From assembly GCA_001803165.1 (NCBI GenBank), contig MHAZ01000006.1:63428-127427 (forward strand): a DNA stretch of 64,000 bases, given 5' to 3'. Below the pieces are notes generated by a model, which was not told where the DNA came from, ran no database searches, and worked only from the letters and a program-made list of their open reading frames with translations. Positions 30,938 through 37,332 of this stretch are shown here, one piece after another. Position 1 is the stretch's first letter. Each line of letters begins with the position of its first letter. Position numbers and translations under genes: made by a program. This DNA comes from Stygiobacter sp. RIFOXYC2_FULL_38_25 (lineage in GTDB: Bacteria; Bacteroidota; Ignavibacteria; Ignavibacteriales; Melioribacteraceae).

Positions 30938-31624
30938 TCAGTTATCTTCATCCACTCTTCGCGCGCCAACGTAACGTTTCTTGTAATAGGCTTCTTGAAG
31001 TGATGAAATTGTTACACCAAGTGAAGTGCTGGAGTGAATGAACTGATCGTCGCCGATGTAAATACCAACATGCCCGGGATTTGAGCGTCTGCGTGTGTTG
31101 AAGAAAACCAAATCGCCAAAAGATAAATCTTCTCGCTCAACTTTTTCTCCTACCGCATACTGCTCTCTTGCAGAACGAGGAAGTTTTATTCCGGTTGATT
31201 TTTCAAAAACTTGTAAAGTAAAGCCCGAGCAATCAATTCCGTTTTCCGTATTACCGCCATATTTATACGGAGTTTCTAAGTACTTAATTACTTGCAAAAG
31301 AATTTCTTCGCGGAAACCAAGCGGTACATCGGGATTGATATAATTCTTGTAATTAGCAATAAACTCTTTTCTATCAATTATGCTTTCTTGCGGCGGGGCT
31401 TCATCAAATTCTTCTTCTGTGGAATCAGGCAATGCTTCTTCAACTTTTGGTGTAATTGCTCTCTTTGAATTGGTTTTAGCATTTTTCTTAGGTGCAGATT
31501 TCTTTTGTTGCTCGGCAACTTCTTTTTTTGATCCGTAACGTTGTGCGCTGGAAGTTGGCGCGCATGCAGATATCATAATGAAGGCAGCAATCCCCAATAA
31601 CACTTTCTTAAGAAACAAAATCAT
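30938..31624 (-). CDS. NlpC/P60 family peptidoglycan endopeptidase lipoprotein
   Basis: Cell-wall hydrolase cutting peptide stems. A lipobox ISAC near residue 21 marks it as a lipoprotein, followed by a basic, low-complexity linker of about 70 residues. The NlpC/P60 domain covers about 105-228: catalytic Cys in GIDCSGF (about 130), His in PGHVGIYIG (about 183) and the third polar residue His in FIHSS (about 196). A single SH3-like domain is not evident. It is the last gene of the run that includes rpoD, 7 bases after it. Confidence 0.88.
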   Translation of the reverse strand: MILFLKKVLLGIAAFIMISACAPTSSAQRYGSKKEVAEQQKKSAPKKNAKTNSKRAITPKVEEALPDSTEEEFDEAPPQESIIDRKEFIANYKNYINPDVPLGFREEILLQVIKYLETPYKYGGNTENGIDCSGFTLQVFEKSTGIKLPRSAREQYAVGEKVEREDLSFGDLVFFNTRRRSNPGHVGIYIGDDQFIHSSTSLGVTISSLQEAYYKKRYVGARRVDEDN

Positions 31625-31631
31625 GTGTTGG

Positions 31632-32486
31632 TTATCCTAAATAAGCTCTGAGATTCTTGCTTCTCGAAGCATGGCGCAATCTGCGGATTGCTTTTTCTTT
31701 TATCTGGCGAACTCTTTCACGGGTAAGATGAAATTTCTCACCTATCTCTTCAAGCGTAAGAGAGTGTTCTTTGTTCAACCCAAAATATAGATTGATTACC
31801 TCGGCTTCTCTTTCAGATAAAGTTGATAGAGCGCGTTCAATTTCCCTCTTCAAAGATTCAGTCATCAATTTATAATCCGGAGAAGGTTGTTCATCACTTT
31901 CCAAAATATCCAGCAAGCGATTCTCTTCACCTTGAGCAAAAGGCGCGTCCATAGAAACAGCGCGTCCGGCTATTTTAAGCGTGTCGGAAACTTCGCTAAT
32001 ATCCATTTGAAGTTCTGAAGCTAATTCTTGCGCGCTTGGTTCACGCTCGTATTCCTGTTCAAGACTGCTGTAGGCTTTTCCAATCTTATTAAGTGCGCCA
32101 ACTCTATTCAGAGGCAAACGTACAATTCTAGATTGTTCTGCAAGCGCTTGAAGTATTGATTGGCGAATCCACCAAACAGCGTAAGAAATAAATTTGAATC
32201 CGCGTGTTTCATCAAATCTTCTTGCGGCTTTAATCAACCCAAGATTTCCTTCGTTGATTAAATCGCCTAGCGAAAGCCCTTGGTTCTGATATTGTTTTGC
32301 AACAGAAACCACGAAGCGCAGATTTGCTTTCACTAATTTTTCGAGCGCAAGTTGATCGTTCTGACGGATACGGATTGCAAGTTCAATTTCTTCATCCGGA
32401 GTTAAGAGATCAACTTTACCGATTTCTTGAAGATATTTATCTAACGATTGACTTTCTCTGTTCGTAAATTGTTTCGAGATTTTCAA
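31632..32486 (-). CDS. rpoD: primary RNA polymerase sigma factor (RpoD/SigA, short form)
   Basis: Primary sigma-70 in the short (284-residue) form typical of Bacteroidota and relatives, with no region 1.1. Region 1.2 is [20 protein letters not shown] in part; region 2 has [28 protein letters not shown] in part, with the -10-melting aromatics; region 3 and region 4 ([28 protein letters not shown] in part) follow. It starts at a TTG behind GGAGGCTGT that overlaps the stop of the upstream BMC vertex gene by four bases (TTGA). Its expression is therefore tied to that gene, which is unusual for the housekeeping sigma. Confidence 0.93.
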
Positions 32487-32767
32487 ACAGCCTCCTGCTT
32501 GCGATCAACATTTATAGAATCTACAATCCCCACAATAGTTGCGTCAACCGGAGCCATATCAACATCAAGCGGAATTACAGCTTCGCTCGCCGTAACATAA
32601 AAAATTATCTCTCCGGCACCGGCACCAACTGTATCGAGCGCTATTAGCGGCTCGCCGGTTTTTTCCAGCAATGAATTAATCGGCTGAACAAACTGCATTT
32701 TGTAGCCGGTTACAGCTTCATACTTTTTCGTAGCCCAAATTGTACCAATCACTTGTCCTAAGTACAT
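32483..32767 (-). CDS. EutN/CcmL-family microcompartment vertex protein (second copy)
   Basis: A 94-residue BMC-P (Pfam EutN_CcmL) protein; such proteins form pentamers that cap the vertices of bacterial microcompartment shells. The family pattern is clear: [12 protein letters not shown] near the N terminus, [24 protein letters not shown] in the middle (quoted in part as [11 protein letters not shown]) and [12 protein letters not shown] at the end. I start it at ATG 32767, which overlaps the first copy's stop as TGATG; a TTG one codon earlier is possible. It overlaps rpoD by four bases. No hexameric shell gene is in the window. Confidence 0.88.
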
Positions 32768-33066
32768 CAAACGTCCACAGTTTTTTTCTTGTTGTCTTTA
32801 ACTGATATATCAAGTTTATCAACAATTGCCATTATAACCGCGTCAACCGGTTTATTTTTTGTGAATGTTGTTTGACGAGCCGAACTTCCTTGTGCAACAA
32901 TTACAACTTCGCCAACGCCGGCACCAACGCTGTCAACAGCAATTACGGTGGAATCTTTTGGATTGTAATCGAGATCGAGCTGCCGGACAATTAAAAACTT
33001 AGCTCCAACCAGCGCCTCATCTTTTCTGGTTGACCAAACCGTACCAATAACTTTTCCTAGTAGCAA
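32767..33066 (-). CDS. EutN/CcmL-family microcompartment vertex protein (first copy)
   Basis: A 99-residue BMC-P protein. The motifs are LLGKVIGTVWSTRKDE (1-17), VIAVDSVGAGVGEVV (about 42-56), QGSSAR (about 59-64) and PVDAVIMAIVDKLD (about 75-88), all typical of the family. It starts at TTG 33066, with AGAGG six bases upstream, immediately after the PIN-domain gene stop. The two vertex paralogues differ substantially, suggesting two distinct vertex positions or hetero-pentamers. Microcompartments usually encode several BMC-P types together with shell hexamers and enzymes; here the neighbours are deoB and rpoD. Confidence 0.9.
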   Translation of the reverse strand: MLLGKVIGTVWSTRKDEALVGAKFLIVRQLDLDYNPKDSTVIAVDSVGAGVGEVVIVAQGSSARQTTFTKNKPVDAVIMAIVDKLDISVKDNKKKTVDV

Positions 33067-33067
33067 A

Positions 33068-33460
33068 TCATCCTCTCAATTCTTTAGGTGAGATAACTTT
33101 TATCCCGCTATTGCGGAATCGCTCAATATCATTTGTCAATATAGGCAGTTTATTATTTTTTGCAAGAGTACACACAAGAGCGTCTCGCACGGACGCAACT
33201 TTATTAAAAAATTCAGTAATGTTCAAACTGTAGCGCTGATGAATTCCCAGAACATTAATGGCGTAGAGAACCGAATTAACCGCTTCTTTTTGTTCCTCAT
33301 CTTTACAATTGAAATAGAGCTCTGAGGCAGTAATAACAGAAGTGAAACAAATTCCTTGTGTCATAGCAAGTTCTAAAACCGAAGGACCGGATAAATCGTG
33401 TTGAGTTAAGTGCTCAACTAAAATATCCGTTTCGATTAAGAACTCAGCTTGTGTTTTCAT
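33068..33460 (-). CDS. PIN-domain ribonuclease (VapC-like)
   Basis: A 130-residue PIN-fold protein. The metal-binding acidic residues are D12 (LIETDILVEHL), E47 (ASELYF), D93 (VRDALV) and D111 (LTNDIERF), in the usual spacing. VapC-type PIN proteins are toxins that cut tRNA or other RNA, paired with an antitoxin encoded just upstream. Here a 59-residue gene overlaps its start by a few bases (ATGA), which fits. It lies in the middle of a coupled operon rather than alone. Confidence 0.85.
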   Translation of the reverse strand: MKTQAEFLIETDILVEHLTQHDLSGPSVLELAMTQGICFTSVITASELYFNCKDEEQKEAVNSVLYAINVLGIHQRYSLNITEFFNKVASVRDALVCTLAKNNKLPILTNDIERFRNSGIKVISPKELRG

Positions 33461-33636
33461 ACTTGGAATGGTTGAATTTGGAAACCGGAAGCGGAGAGCT
33501 TTCCTTTGGATTGTAAGAATTTTTCTATCACTTCATCCGGCAACTTTTGCAATTCTTTTATACGAACAAACATTTCTTCTTTAGTAAGATTCTTGTTCTG
33601 TTCTTCCTGCCCGGATTTGTTTTGCATCTCATTCAT
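33457..33636 (-). CDS. small antitoxin-like protein, 59 residues
   Basis: Not recognised by a family signature, but a real gene by layout: ATG at 33636 overlaps the end of deoB and the TGA at 33457 overlaps the PIN gene's ATG (ATGA). The protein is charged and helical: MNEMQNKSGQEEQNKNLTKEE, in part, then VRIKELQKLPDEVIEKFLQ, a pattern seen in VapB- and DUF2281-like antitoxins, and a C-terminal tail (SASGFQIQPFQV) of the sort that blocks a PIN active site. A second ATG at 33627 is possible. Antitoxin function is inference from position and size. Confidence 0.65.
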   Translation of the reverse strand: MNEMQNKSGQEEQNKNLTKEEMFVRIKELQKLPDEVIEKFLQSKGKLSASGFQIQPFQV

Positions 33637-34792
33637 TCAGAAAGCTTTTTCCTTCCAAAGCATTGTTTACTTTAAAATAGTGAGCAACCGTTTGAGCCAC
33701 GTCTGCATAGGTATTTCTCACACCAAGATTTTTGCCCGGTATATTTTTTCTAAAATAGAGCAGCGGAACATACTCTCTTGTGTGGTCGGTCGAAATATCT
33801 GTTGGGTCATTTCCATGATCGGCAGTAAGAATCAGATGGTCGCTTTCATCCAGCGCATCAACTATTTCCGGTAAGCGAGCATCAAACTCTTGCAAAGCTC
33901 TGTGGTAACCTTCGGCATCGTTGCGGTGACCGTAGTAAACATCAAAATCAACCAAGTTGGCAAACAAGAAACTGTTCTTCGCAGATTTGTTAGTCGCAAT
34001 AATTTTTTCAATTCCCTCTTGGTTGGATTTTGTTTTTTGCTGATGTTTAATTCCACTATAATTAAAAAGATCGTTAATCTTGCCGATACCGTAAGTTTCA
34101 ATTCCAAGTTCGGAGAGATAATTCAAAATCGTAGGTGATGTTGGATCAATGGAAAAATCTTTCCGGTTTGTTGTGCGTGTAAATTTTCCATCTTTAGTAA
34201 TAAAGGGACGCGCAATGATTCGCCCGACTTCGTGCTCTCCAATCATAACTTTGTCGCGGGCAATTTTGCAAATCTCATACTGCCGTTCAATCGGAATAAT
34301 TTCTTCGTGAGCAGCAATCTGAAAGACGCTGTCGGCAGAAGTATAAATAATCGGGAATCCGGTCTTGCAATGTTCTTCACCAAGTTCATCAATAATCAGT
34401 GTGCCGGAAGCTGTACAATTAGCTAGAATTCCTTTCAATTCGGTCTCAGCAAGAAACCTATCAATCACATCTTTAGGAAATCCATTTGGGTAGACGGGGA
34501 ATTCTTTTTTTGTAATTACTCCGCCAAGTTCCCAATGCCCGGTTGTAGAATCTTTGCCGAGAGATTGTTCTGCAAGTTTGCCGTACGAAGCAAGCGGTGC
34601 TTCAGCCGGCTCAACGCCTAAAATCGGATTGATGTTGCCGAGTCCAAACTTTTGAAGATTCGGCAGATTCAAGCCGCCAAGTTTTTTTGCCATGTTGCCG
34701 AGTGTGTCGCTTCCTTTATCTCCATATTTTTCAGCATCGGGCATTTCACCAATCCCGACACTATCGAGTACAACTACAATAAAATTATTCAA
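33629..34792 (-). CDS. deoB: phosphopentomutase
   Basis: Metal-dependent phosphomutase converting (deoxy)ribose 1-phosphate to the 5-phosphate in nucleoside salvage. The alkaline-phosphatase fold signatures are VVVLDSVGIGEMPDA at the start (Asp and metal ligands), KDSTTGHWELGG (about 78-90, with the catalytic Thr), FPIIYTSADSVFQIAAHE in part, and the C-terminal LTADHGNDPT and DHTREYVPLL metal ligands. Length 387 is normal. It starts at a TTG behind AAAGGAAATTCA. It leads into the antitoxin-like gene by overlap and thereby into the BMC vertex genes and rpoD. Confidence 0.93.
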   Translation of the reverse strand: MNNFIVVVLDSVGIGEMPDAEKYGDKGSDTLGNMAKKLGGLNLPNLQKFGLGNINPILGVEPAEAPLASYGKLAEQSLGKDSTTGHWELGGVITKKEFPVYPNGFPKDVIDRFLAETELKGILANCTASGTLIIDELGEEHCKTGFPIIYTSADSVFQIAAHEEIIPIERQYEICKIARDKVMIGEHEVGRIIARPFITKDGKFTRTTNRKDFSIDPTSPTILNYLSELGIETYGIGKINDLFNYSGIKHQQKTKSNQEGIEKIIATNKSAKNSFLFANLVDFDVYYGHRNDAEGYHRALQEFDARLPEIVDALDESDHLILTADHGNDPTDISTDHTREYVPLLYFRKNIPGKNLGVRNTYADVAQTVAHYFKVNNALEGKSFLNE

Positions 34793-34802
34793 TGAATTTC
34801 CT

Positions 34803-36677
34803 TTAGTTGGTGCTTTTTACCGAATTGCCGCCCTTCTCAATTGCTTTCTTCAAAGCTAACTCGGCATTGTAAAGAATTTCTTGCGCGTCAATTTTTCCAA
34901 TCGTTGATGCAACACCAATCGAGACAGTAAATGTAGATTGTTTAGAGACCACCGGTATCGGCTTACGGGCAATTTTAATTCTCAATTTTTCCGCCCACAG
35001 AAAAACATCCTTTGGAGCAGTATTGAAGAAGTAAACTGCAAAAACTTTTTCGCTTAAACGTCCGAACAAGTTCATCGGGGTCATTTCTTCTCTGATCATT
35101 TGACCAACTGCACGAAAAACTTTCGGGAATGGATCGCCTTCAAACAGAGACTGCTGCTCTAGCAGTTCATCAACTTTGATTAAAGCTACCGCGCCTTGCA
35201 CTGTAAGTTCTTTACTCTTAACAAGATCAATCGTAAACCGTTCTAAGAATGAATCGTAATTCAAAGCTTTGGTTTCAATATCATGAGATAGGAAAGAACG
35301 CAAAATTGTAACAGAAGAATATGAATGTAGTATGAACGCGAAAATCTTTGTAGCATTTTTAATGAAGGCAACTTCATTATTTGAGTAAACATTTTTCTTT
35401 AAGCTCTCAAAGCAGAGAACACCGTAATTCTGATCATCGTAAACAAGTGGCACAGCTAGAAAAGAACCATCAAAATGAAAATCTTCATTCTTAGAGAAGC
35501 GAGGCGGAATTTCAGTGTTGGAAGTATCATCTATCTTAACCGGGGTTGTGCTAAGTATTGCTCTGCCTACAAGTGTTCCGGTTAAATCAATTTCCAATCC
35601 GTGACCAATATATTTTAGAGAGGTCTTGTTAACAATCTTTGCAGTTTTGAATTTATGTTCGTTCGGTTCGTAAGTAACTAATGTAAAAACGTCCCATTCA
35701 ATTAAGCCATGCACTGCGGTTTCAATAGCTTGGAATAACTCGCTCTCGGATTCATATTTTCTATCGTAAGAGAAAATATCAACCAAAGTTTTTAAACGTT
35801 GCTCTGCTTGCGACTCAGCAAACTTTTCCTCAAATAGATTAATGATTACGGAAATCACGCGAACGATTCTGCCAAGCGAGTAAACTTGTTCAATTCCAAA
35901 TGCATCGTTCATCTTAGAATCAAGCACAAGAATTCCGGTTAACGCTTTGCCGTAAAACAACGGTACGCCAACGAAGCTCTTTATTCCCTGCGGCTGATTG
36001 TAATAGCGCAGATTATCTGCCTCTGCGTTCGAGGTAATATCCGTAAGGATTTCCGGCTCTTCTTTCTGAACAATCTTGCCGAGAATATCATCCTCTAATT
36101 CAAATTTTTGTTTAGTAATCTGAGTAGAAGCTGAGACGTGTCTTTCGAGAGTTAGTCTTTTGCGTTTGGCGTTATACCAAAAGAACGCAGCTGTGTGAGC
36201 CATGTAAGCGTCTTTAATTACACTTAGAATTTTTTCGAGAACAAAACCGAACTGTTCATCCTGACTTACATCGGTTGGTAATTCTTCAAGGACAATGCTT
36301 TCAAAATTCTTTTTGAAATCCGCCGGTTTAAAAACATCGCCGCTGCTGCTTTTGGGAATATTAGTGTTGAAATTTTCAGCTGTGATTATTTCAAGATTTT
36401 TATTCTTGGAAATGATTTTGAATTCTTCGCCGTGATCTGTTTCGTAACCGCCGGCTCTATAGATTGCCGGCTCATCAAGTCTATTATCCATTGGCGGAGG
36501 GGCTTCTTCTACTTTATTTGAATCACGGAGAAAAATTATGAAGCCGATATATATCACTAATATAACTGCGGCAACAGCGCGGTACATTACATCTTCGGTA
36601 AAAAATGGAATTGCCAGTAGTATTGGAATTATTGAAAAAGTTAATAAGCGCCGTTTACTTTTGTCGTCAAAACCCAT
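34803..36677 (-). CDS. membrane protein with two GAF domains and a degenerate GGDEF domain
   Basis: A 624-residue protein. Two membrane helices lie at about 10-27 and 32-49. A linker is followed by two GAF domains (about 130-290 and 310-470) that could sense small ligands. The C-terminal 155 residues have the GGDEF fold (VALIKVDEL, LFGRLSEKVFAVYFF, TVSIGVAS, ELALKKAIEKGGNSV). The catalytic GGDEF loop is replaced by LSEKVF, so diguanylate cyclase activity is unlikely. It probably works by binding a ligand, GTP or partner protein. It lies 10 bases upstream of deoB, so the two may share a transcript. Confidence 0.75.
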   Translation of the reverse strand: MGFDDKSKRRLLTFSIIPILLAIPFFTEDVMYRAVAAVILVIYIGFIIFLRDSNKVEEAPPPMDNRLDEPAIYRAGGYETDHGEEFKIISKNKNLEIITAENFNTNIPKSSSGDVFKPADFKKNFESIVLEELPTDVSQDEQFGFVLEKILSVIKDAYMAHTAAFFWYNAKRKRLTLERHVSASTQITKQKFELEDDILGKIVQKEEPEILTDITSNAEADNLRYYNQPQGIKSFVGVPLFYGKALTGILVLDSKMNDAFGIEQVYSLGRIVRVISVIINLFEEKFAESQAEQRLKTLVDIFSYDRKYESESELFQAIETAVHGLIEWDVFTLVTYEPNEHKFKTAKIVNKTSLKYIGHGLEIDLTGTLVGRAILSTTPVKIDDTSNTEIPPRFSKNEDFHFDGSFLAVPLVYDDQNYGVLCFESLKKNVYSNNEVAFIKNATKIFAFILHSYSSVTILRSFLSHDIETKALNYDSFLERFTIDLVKSKELTVQGAVALIKVDELLEQQSLFEGDPFPKVFRAVGQMIREEMTPMNLFGRLSEKVFAVYFFNTAPKDVFLWAEKLRIKIARKPIPVVSKQSTFTVSIGVASTIGKIDAQEILYNAELALKKAIEKGGNSVKSTN

Positions 36678-36750: not shown

Positions 36751-37332
36751 TCATGAAAGGAACAGTCTGCTAATTAAGCTGATTATCTCTTTTCTTCCGG
36801 TCCCTTTTATAGAAGAAAAGTGAAACATGTTCTCGCCAAATATCAGTTCCGGGAAATACTCGTGAACAACTCTTTTAATGTTAGCCAGTTCTTTCTGGTT
36901 CAGTTTATCTACTTTGTTTAAGATGACAAAATATGGCAGTCCGAGTGAATTGATAAATTCATTTAACTCAATATCCGTCTGCATTGGCTCGTGACGGCTA
37001 TCAATAAGGTGAAATACGATTTGATCATTTTTTTTGAGTGAGAAAAAACTATGAAGCAATTTCTGCCAAGCCTCCCGCTCCCCTTTCGAAACTTTAGCGT
37101 AACCAAAACCGGGCAGATCAACAAAGTAAAACTTGTTCTCAATTTTGTAATAGTTGATAGACCTCGTTTTACCGGGTGTTGAACTGGTTTTTGCAACTTT
37201 CGAGTTAAGTAATGAATTAACAAACGATGACTTCCCAACATTTGATCTTCCGCAAAGAACAACTTCCGGCAAAATCTCTTTAGGCAATTCAGTCAATTTA
37301 TATACTGCTTTTACAAACTCGATTTTCTTCAT
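36751..37332 (-). CDS. engB: ribosome-biogenesis GTPase EngB/YsxC
   Basis: Essential TRAFAC GTPase for assembly of the large ribosomal subunit. G1 is GRSNVGKSS (28-36), G3 DLPGFGYA (about 71-78), G4 NKVDK (about 138-142) and G5 SSIKGTG near 173. Length 193 is typical. It starts at ATG 37332, with GAGAGAAA upstream. A strong -7 box TACTTTTG lies 42 bases before the start. The gene is divergent from the symporter gene. Confidence 0.95.
   Translation of the reverse strand: MKKIEFVKAVYKLTELPKEILPEVVLCGRSNVGKSSFVNSLLNSKVAKTSSTPGKTRSINYYKIENKFYFVDLPGFGYAKVSKGEREAWQKLLHSFFSLKKNDQIVFHLIDSRHEPMQTDIELNEFINSLGLPYFVILNKVDKLNQKELANIKRVVHEYFPELIFGENMFHFSSIKGTGRKEIISLISRLFLS

Follow-up and report, generated by a model that had tools for sequence, protein, structure and literature searches.

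Why should two genes for bacterial microcompartment (BMC) vertex proteins lie between the phosphopentomutase gene deoB and the gene for a primary-type sigma factor? The question is raised by a 64,000-nucleotide stretch of DNA from Stygiobacter sp. RIFOXYC2_FULL_38_25 (assembly GCA_001803165.1, contig MHAZ01000006.1, positions 63,428 to 127,427; G000:C6:63428-127427 in the coordinates used here), hereafter the window, which comes from a genome of 4.4 Mb that is 99.8% complete. The answer that we consider likely is that the two proteins, BMC-P1 and BMC-P2, cap the vertices of a FRAG-type metabolosome with dispersed genes, in which deoxyribose 5-phosphate supplied by DeoB is split. The gene string in the window consists of the following.

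33629-34792, minus strand: deoB, phosphopentomutase, 387 amino acids (NCBIfam NF003766, TIGR01696)
33457-33636, minus strand: small open reading frame (ORF) of 59 codons, seen from its translation and called antitoxin-like from its position ahead of the PIN gene
33068-33460, minus strand: PIN-domain protein, VapC-like (PF01850, E value 1.7e-8)
32767-33066, minus strand: BMC-P1, microcompartment vertex pentamer (PF03319, 4.7e-31)
32483-32767, minus strand: BMC-P2, second vertex pentamer (PF03319, 1.2e-25)
31632-32486, minus strand: sigma-70 factor, primary-type, 284 amino acids (regions 1.2, 2, 3 and 4 by family search)

An initial annotation of the window had described these genes as overlapping or abutting, and the coordinates, junctions and family matches confirm that description. 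The small ORF shares 8 bases with deoB and 4 bases with the PIN gene, and the PIN gene is separated from BMC-P1 by one base. BMC-P1 and BMC-P2 meet at the sequence TGATG, in which the stop and start codons have one base in common, and BMC-P2 overlaps the sigma gene by 4 bases (TTGA), with AGGAGG immediately upstream of the sigma start. The BMC-P2 start was placed at the ATG at 32767, with a TTG at 32770 as an alternative. DeoB scored 533.5 bits against NF003766 (cut-off 256) and 483.2 bits against TIGR01696 (cut-off 341.2). BMC-P1 was 66-96% identical to 25 aligned orthologues, and its closest solved structure was 5v74 (1.8e-24), an EutN/CcmL-type protein that we take to be a shell protein of the Haliangium ochraceum (HO) microcompartment. 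For the sigma protein, RpoD models ranked top with scores under their cut-offs, and that ranking together with strong conservation points to a primary sigma factor. A promoter and terminator scan of the gene string performed no better on the real sequence than on shuffles, and we infer that the string is co-transcribed.

Profile searches of the whole genome returned three PF03319 and four PF00936 matches, all above cut-off, and indicated two BMC-H, one BMC-T and three BMC-P genes. The initial annotation had called for a search for BMC-H or BMC-T, deoC and an aldehyde dehydrogenase, and every one of these was found, at loci other than that of the pair.

Contig C4: two adjacent BMC-H genes (PF00936)
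Contig C4, L008:1143-2009: deoC, about 7 kb from the BMC-H pair
Contig C1: BMC-T, one protein with two BMC domains (PF00936)
L009:7903-9216: PduS/RnfC-like gene, one small ORF away from the BMC-T gene
Contig C17: third BMC-P, BMC-P3 (PF03319)
Contig C17: acetylating aldehyde dehydrogenase, 530 amino acids, about 14 kb from BMC-P3

The shell genes are thus split over four places (C1, C4, C6 and C17), and no contig has BMC-H and BMC-P together. DeoC was identified as the DeoC equivalog at 279.1 bits (cut-off 117.3). The best model for the dehydrogenase was TIGR02518, acetaldehyde dehydrogenase (acetylating), at 615.3 bits, slightly below the cut-off of 620.1, and among its solved relatives are an acetylating acetaldehyde dehydrogenase and AdhE enzymes. 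The best NCBIfam model for BMC-T was eut_PduT, with a score under its cut-off. This distribution of genes supports the suggestion that shell hexamers and an aldolase encoded at other loci belong to a compartment that is fed by DeoB.

One of the two hexamer genes has an additional feature. The second BMC-H (L008:9074-9763, minus strand) continues through a variable linker into a C-terminal domain that spans some 40 residues and is highly conserved, with a consensus around NVHELRRLAR..NFPIKGREISKANR, which was present in all 27 long copies (29 loci, L085-L113). By eye the domain resembles SAP or Rho_N nucleic-acid-binding motifs, and Pfam gave weak matches for only two of four tails, the best being SAM_2 with an E value of 0.011.

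Co-occurrence of the parts was assessed in 58 genomes of the order, our own and 57 others, sorted and counted by hand. The BMC-P pair was present in 45 (our own genome, 40 whose loci were read, and G001, G051, G052 and G055 by match coordinates) and absent in nine, two of which (G042 and G053) were counted as pair-less from the absence of a tandem strong PF03319 match, the site itself not being seen. Four genomes were left unclassed, G002 and G024 because the end of the contig cuts deoB short, and G008 and G054 because they gave no DeoB match. G008 contains the other parts, and an assembly gap likely lies behind its missing pair because DeoB was not found there either. A DeoC extended at its N terminus was found in 43 of the 45 pair-carrying genomes versus none of the nine pair-less ones, and the dehydrogenase was found in 44 (G026 having a fragment only) versus none; Fisher p values were 1e-8 and 2e-9, respectively, with the four unclassed genomes left out and relatedness ignored. 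The PduS orthologue likewise occurred in 39 of 45 versus 0 of 9. All 45 pair-carrying genomes, our own included, have at least two PF00936 matches, and BMC-T is not in all of them. Among the pair-less genomes the DeoC match begins after the extension in eight, and G039 has a distant DeoC only. DeoB is kept in all nine and a PTA_PTB match occurs in all 58 genomes, and the losses are therefore not a matter of general gene loss or poor assembly. We conclude that the extended DeoC and the dehydrogenase travel with the vertex pair, which further supports a compartment fed by DeoB.

Possible targeting signals were examined in both enzymes. Orthologues of the dehydrogenase were found in 46 genomes, and all 30 sequences that were read end in a C-terminal tail with the approximate consensus G-(S/T)-G-I-S-E-x-E-I-x-K-I-I-x-E-F. 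The tails had a median hydrophobic moment of 0.52, whereas the 95th percentile of internal windows was 0.48; 16 of the 30 tails exceeded their own shuffles at p < 0.05. The tail is amphipathic and encapsulation-peptide-like and would presumably serve in targeting. DeoC carries about 65 extra N-terminal residues that are conserved in relatives; within this extension (residues 1-65) are two cysteines, mostly conserved, and a GWE motif, the latter in 40 of 40 extended DeoCs read, and the extension of our own genome gave no Pfam family match. A classic amphipathic encapsulation helix was not found at the DeoC N terminus in 18-residue windows, and the extension may instead be some other type of docking domain. 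DeoB is mostly 384-390 amino acids long whether or not the pair is present, the exceptions being shorter frames, several of them at contig edges, and one protein of 400 amino acids. By this comparison of lengths DeoB has no extra targeting tail in genomes with or without the pair and is therefore most likely cytosolic.

A pathway can be proposed from these parts. In the cytosol DeoB would convert deoxyribose 1-phosphate, derived from nucleoside breakdown, to deoxyribose 5-phosphate. The deoxyribose 5-phosphate would then enter the shell, where DeoC would split it into glyceraldehyde 3-phosphate and acetaldehyde, and the dehydrogenase would convert acetaldehyde to acetyl-coenzyme A (CoA) and NADH while the toxic, volatile aldehyde is kept from the rest of the cell. 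Electrons would leave through the shell by way of the PduS-like flavo-iron-sulphur protein docked on BMC-T. PduS and PduT are the electron-transfer pair of the Pdu organelle, and the likeness here lies in an RnfC-like protein encoded beside a two-domain BMC-T. In G037, G041, G055 and G026 (90% complete) the PduS orthologue and BMC-T are both missing, and these genomes retain BMC-H and the extended DeoC, the first three also the full dehydrogenase. The joint loss is consistent with a PduS-PduT-like module that can disappear by itself, and electron export may be optional.

Several observations weigh against this pathway or against the association on which it is built. Besides the indirect classing of G042 and G053, two genomes, G031 and G040, have the pair and the dehydrogenase and no DeoC match, which reflects either assembly gaps or a shell that acts on another substrate, and the DeoC of G045 has an internal stop. 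Loss of the pair is not always loss of the shell. G012 keeps two PF00936 matches (best 2.2e-28), G023, G039 and G046 keep weaker ones, and another shell cluster is present in G035, G042 and G053, so that among the nine pair-less genomes only G034 and G057 have no shell gene. The 18-residue N-terminal helix of DeoC had a median hydrophobic moment of 0.10, lower than the control median (0.20), and 0 of 40 beat shuffles at p < 0.05. In 11-residue windows the values rose to 0.57 close to the N terminus and to 0.60 in another stretch that follows GWE, which, as peaks among 52 windows, exceed the control 95th percentile of 0.51 only slightly. A PduL-type phosphotransacylase, the expected companion in a metabolosome core of the acylating dehydrogenase with its encapsulation-peptide-like tail, was not found as a PF06130 match in the host genome, and the recycling of CoA inside the shell is therefore unexplained. 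Finally, some extension-less DeoCs may be replacements rather than decayed copies. In the DeoC tree seven of the eight extension-less DeoCs from pair-less genomes group together on long branches, and the DeoC of G012 falls among the extended ones. G012 resembles an intermediate: it lacks BMC-P, and the N terminus of its DeoC is shorter and altered. The extension may have decayed once the shell was lost, or another DeoC may have taken the place of the original; in both cases the extension accompanies the pair and was not observed in its absence.

PTA_PTB proteins, matched in every genome, were rejected as a co-occurring partner.

The alternative that best survives is a real shell with another substrate, processed by another aldolase or being ethanolamine or a diol, with DeoB and DeoC as ordinary salvage enzymes that happen to be encoded near shell genes. 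According to the 2021 catalogue, known enzymes lie at a distance from most FRAG shell genes (PMC8217296), deoC itself is not near the BMC-H pair in several genomes (e.g., G044, G048 and G049), and G031 and G040 do without a DeoC match altogether. An unrelated salvage enzyme, however, would not be expected to carry an extension that tracks the pair as closely as that of DeoC does, and the dehydrogenase is of the acetaldehyde type. In G018, a second, distant DeoC without extension is present besides the extended one. Moreover, of the best 80 of 348 confirmed matches, 79 have deoB ahead of the pair, though conserved gene order would also explain that position. We consider a different substrate unlikely and retain deoxyribose 5-phosphate as the probable one.

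Some relatives have, in addition, a second cluster of shell genes, which is compact and comes with a different aldehyde dehydrogenase (27-32% identity). The cluster was also seen in G011, G027 and G031, and was located as follows.

G013:C1:123349-126816: compact second shell cluster
G042:C45:2864-7957: compact second shell cluster
G053:C52:8020-13133: compact second shell cluster
G035:C1:3214137-3223635: compact second shell cluster
G056:C12:283530-288633: compact second shell cluster

A PduS-like gene (41-44%) lies in or near the compact cluster of G035, G042, G053 and G056; in the pair-less G035, G042 and G053 the only PduS relative (41-42%) is the one with or near this other cluster. A PVM-like locus is reported for Melioribacter roseus in PMC4207490, and the compact cluster may be that locus.

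If the vertices belong to a metabolosome, their place beside rpoD has still to be accounted for. The neighbours conserved on either side of the string are the following.

36751-37332, minus strand: EngB/YsxC-like GTPase (label by eye), conserved neighbour upstream
34803-36677, minus strand: 624-amino-acid protein, GAF (label by eye), conserved neighbour upstream
30938-31624, minus strand: NlpC/P60-like protein (label by eye), conserved neighbour downstream

The order EngB-GAF-DeoB-(PIN)-P1-P2-sigma-NlpC is kept in nearly all of the 40 relatives' loci, as far as their contigs extend. The check on deoB-BMC-P-rpoD order in relatives that the initial annotation had proposed thus came out in its favor: deoB precedes the pair in 38 of 40 loci (the contig of L077 ends, and L070 has other ORFs there), and the sigma gene is directly downstream in all 40, so that the arrangement is not due to chance. 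Among 80 named loci, the best 80 of 348 confirmed matches, whose genomes overlap with those of the 40-locus set, 79 had deoB on the upstream side and 78 had the sigma gene on the downstream side, the contigs of the remaining two ending first; BMC-P2 was not recognised in one locus, L252. The titles of these 80 loci are nearly all Ignavibacteria-type, Melioribacter-type, Bacteroidetes or Chlorobiota, and Stygiobacter electus 09-Me (L218), which is among them, has the same gene string.

Such conservation, together with the overlapping start and stop codons, could indicate that the pentamers are functionally coupled to rpoD, either because vertices and sigma factor are made together or because the pentamers regulate sigma. 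The pair-less genomes, however, retain the site in an empty form. The sigma gene comes next after deoB, with no BMC-P between, in G012, G023, G034, G039 and G057, and only PIN lies between them in G035 and G046 (plus a small ORF seen in G046). The deoB-(PIN)-sigma string is therefore intact without the pair in seven of the nine, and in the other two, G042 and G053, the contig ends before the deoB-sigma site. In a DeoB and sigma tree of 50 genomes, in which the bootstrap had not settled, the pair label needs five changes, three of them forced by well-supported branches, and repeated loss of the pair would be simpler than repeated insertion at one site. The sigma gene needs no pair, and neutral conservation of gene order explains the link, so that functional coupling to rpoD is very improbable. 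The link that the initial annotation had found striking is thus real and conserved, but a shell-specific version of it is ruled out by the pair-less genomes that retain deoB-sigma. We conclude that the deoB-rpoD string exists independently of the pair and that its link to rpoD reflects inherited gene order rather than a device specific to the shell.

Least credible of all is that the pair are orphan pentamers with a shell-free function tied to transcription or to DeoB, an alternative that the initial annotation had entertained and that their housekeeping surroundings with no BMC-H adjoining might recommend, but that scarcely survives the annotation's own test, BMC-H and BMC-T having been found in the same genome and PF00936 matches in every pair-carrying one.

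The PIN gene can be separated from the pair as well. It was present in 18 of the 40 relatives' loci and in 41 of the 80 named loci, and was also found in the pair-less G035, G042 and G046. As PIN occurs in roughly half of all loci, whether the pair is there or not, it is probably not part of the organelle. Within the sigma-factor string, the small ORF and the VapC-like PIN gene (33068-33636) are unlike a typical mobile toxin-antitoxin pair.

The position of the pair also bears on its expression pattern. Because the pair sits in the deoB-rpoD gene string, a steady housekeeping expression of the vertices is suggested rather than substrate induction. The dispersed genes have housekeeping neighbours, namely rpoD and, by eye, relA/spoT, ruvX, folD, dprA and a clpC-like gene. 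A bolder version of the proposal, which we advance tentatively and regard as rather doubtful, is an always-on organelle that recycles DNA sugars from genes kept among housekeeping strings, and in which the C-terminal domain of the second BMC-H would act as a tether to nucleic acid or cargo.

The metabolosome proposed here was compared with published systems. FRAG microcompartments (Sutter et al. 2021, PMC8217296) have no obvious signature enzyme, and their function was left open and expected to emerge later. The host genome resembles them in its scattered shell genes without a main locus and its three BMC-P genes, and Ignavibacteriae are among the listed hosts (PMC8217296); the assignment to FRAG was made here on shell-gene scatter and the BMC-P triplet. 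The difference from FRAG as published is that, in the Ignavibacteriales, a candidate function emerges from the extended DeoC, the acetylating dehydrogenase with its tail and the link to deoB. SPU organelles, whose types are defined by loci sharing DeoC-type and RpiB-type enzymes, combine a DeoC-type aldolase with an aldehyde dehydrogenase and were proposed to break down DNA-derived deoxyribose phosphate (PMC4207490, PMC8217296). Both enzymes are likewise found in the host genome, but its genes are dispersed, and enzymes and shell are not in one locus as they are in SPU. The HO microcompartment of Haliangium ochraceum has a BMC-P triplet, as here, and a main locus, unlike the host genome, in which none was seen; some HO genomes have a distant PF01791 gene with an N-terminal extension that is encapsulation-peptide-like (PMC8217296). 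A deoxyribose-phosphate role for FRAG was not found in the literature searched, which lay outside subscription papers, preprints and the supplement of PMC8217296. As far as these sources go, dispersed FRAG shells in Ignavibacteria and DeoC in SPU organelles were known, and the candidate function for FRAG is new.

Co-occurrence within one order thus connects a FRAG-type shell with one particular aldolase and one particular dehydrogenase, and thereby gives it a concrete, testable substrate. A function is suggested for a microcompartment class whose role is left open in the 2021 catalogue (PMC8217296). Moreover, to judge by the arrangement in Stygiobacter and its relatives, an organelle may be maintained even when its genes are scattered among housekeeping strings.

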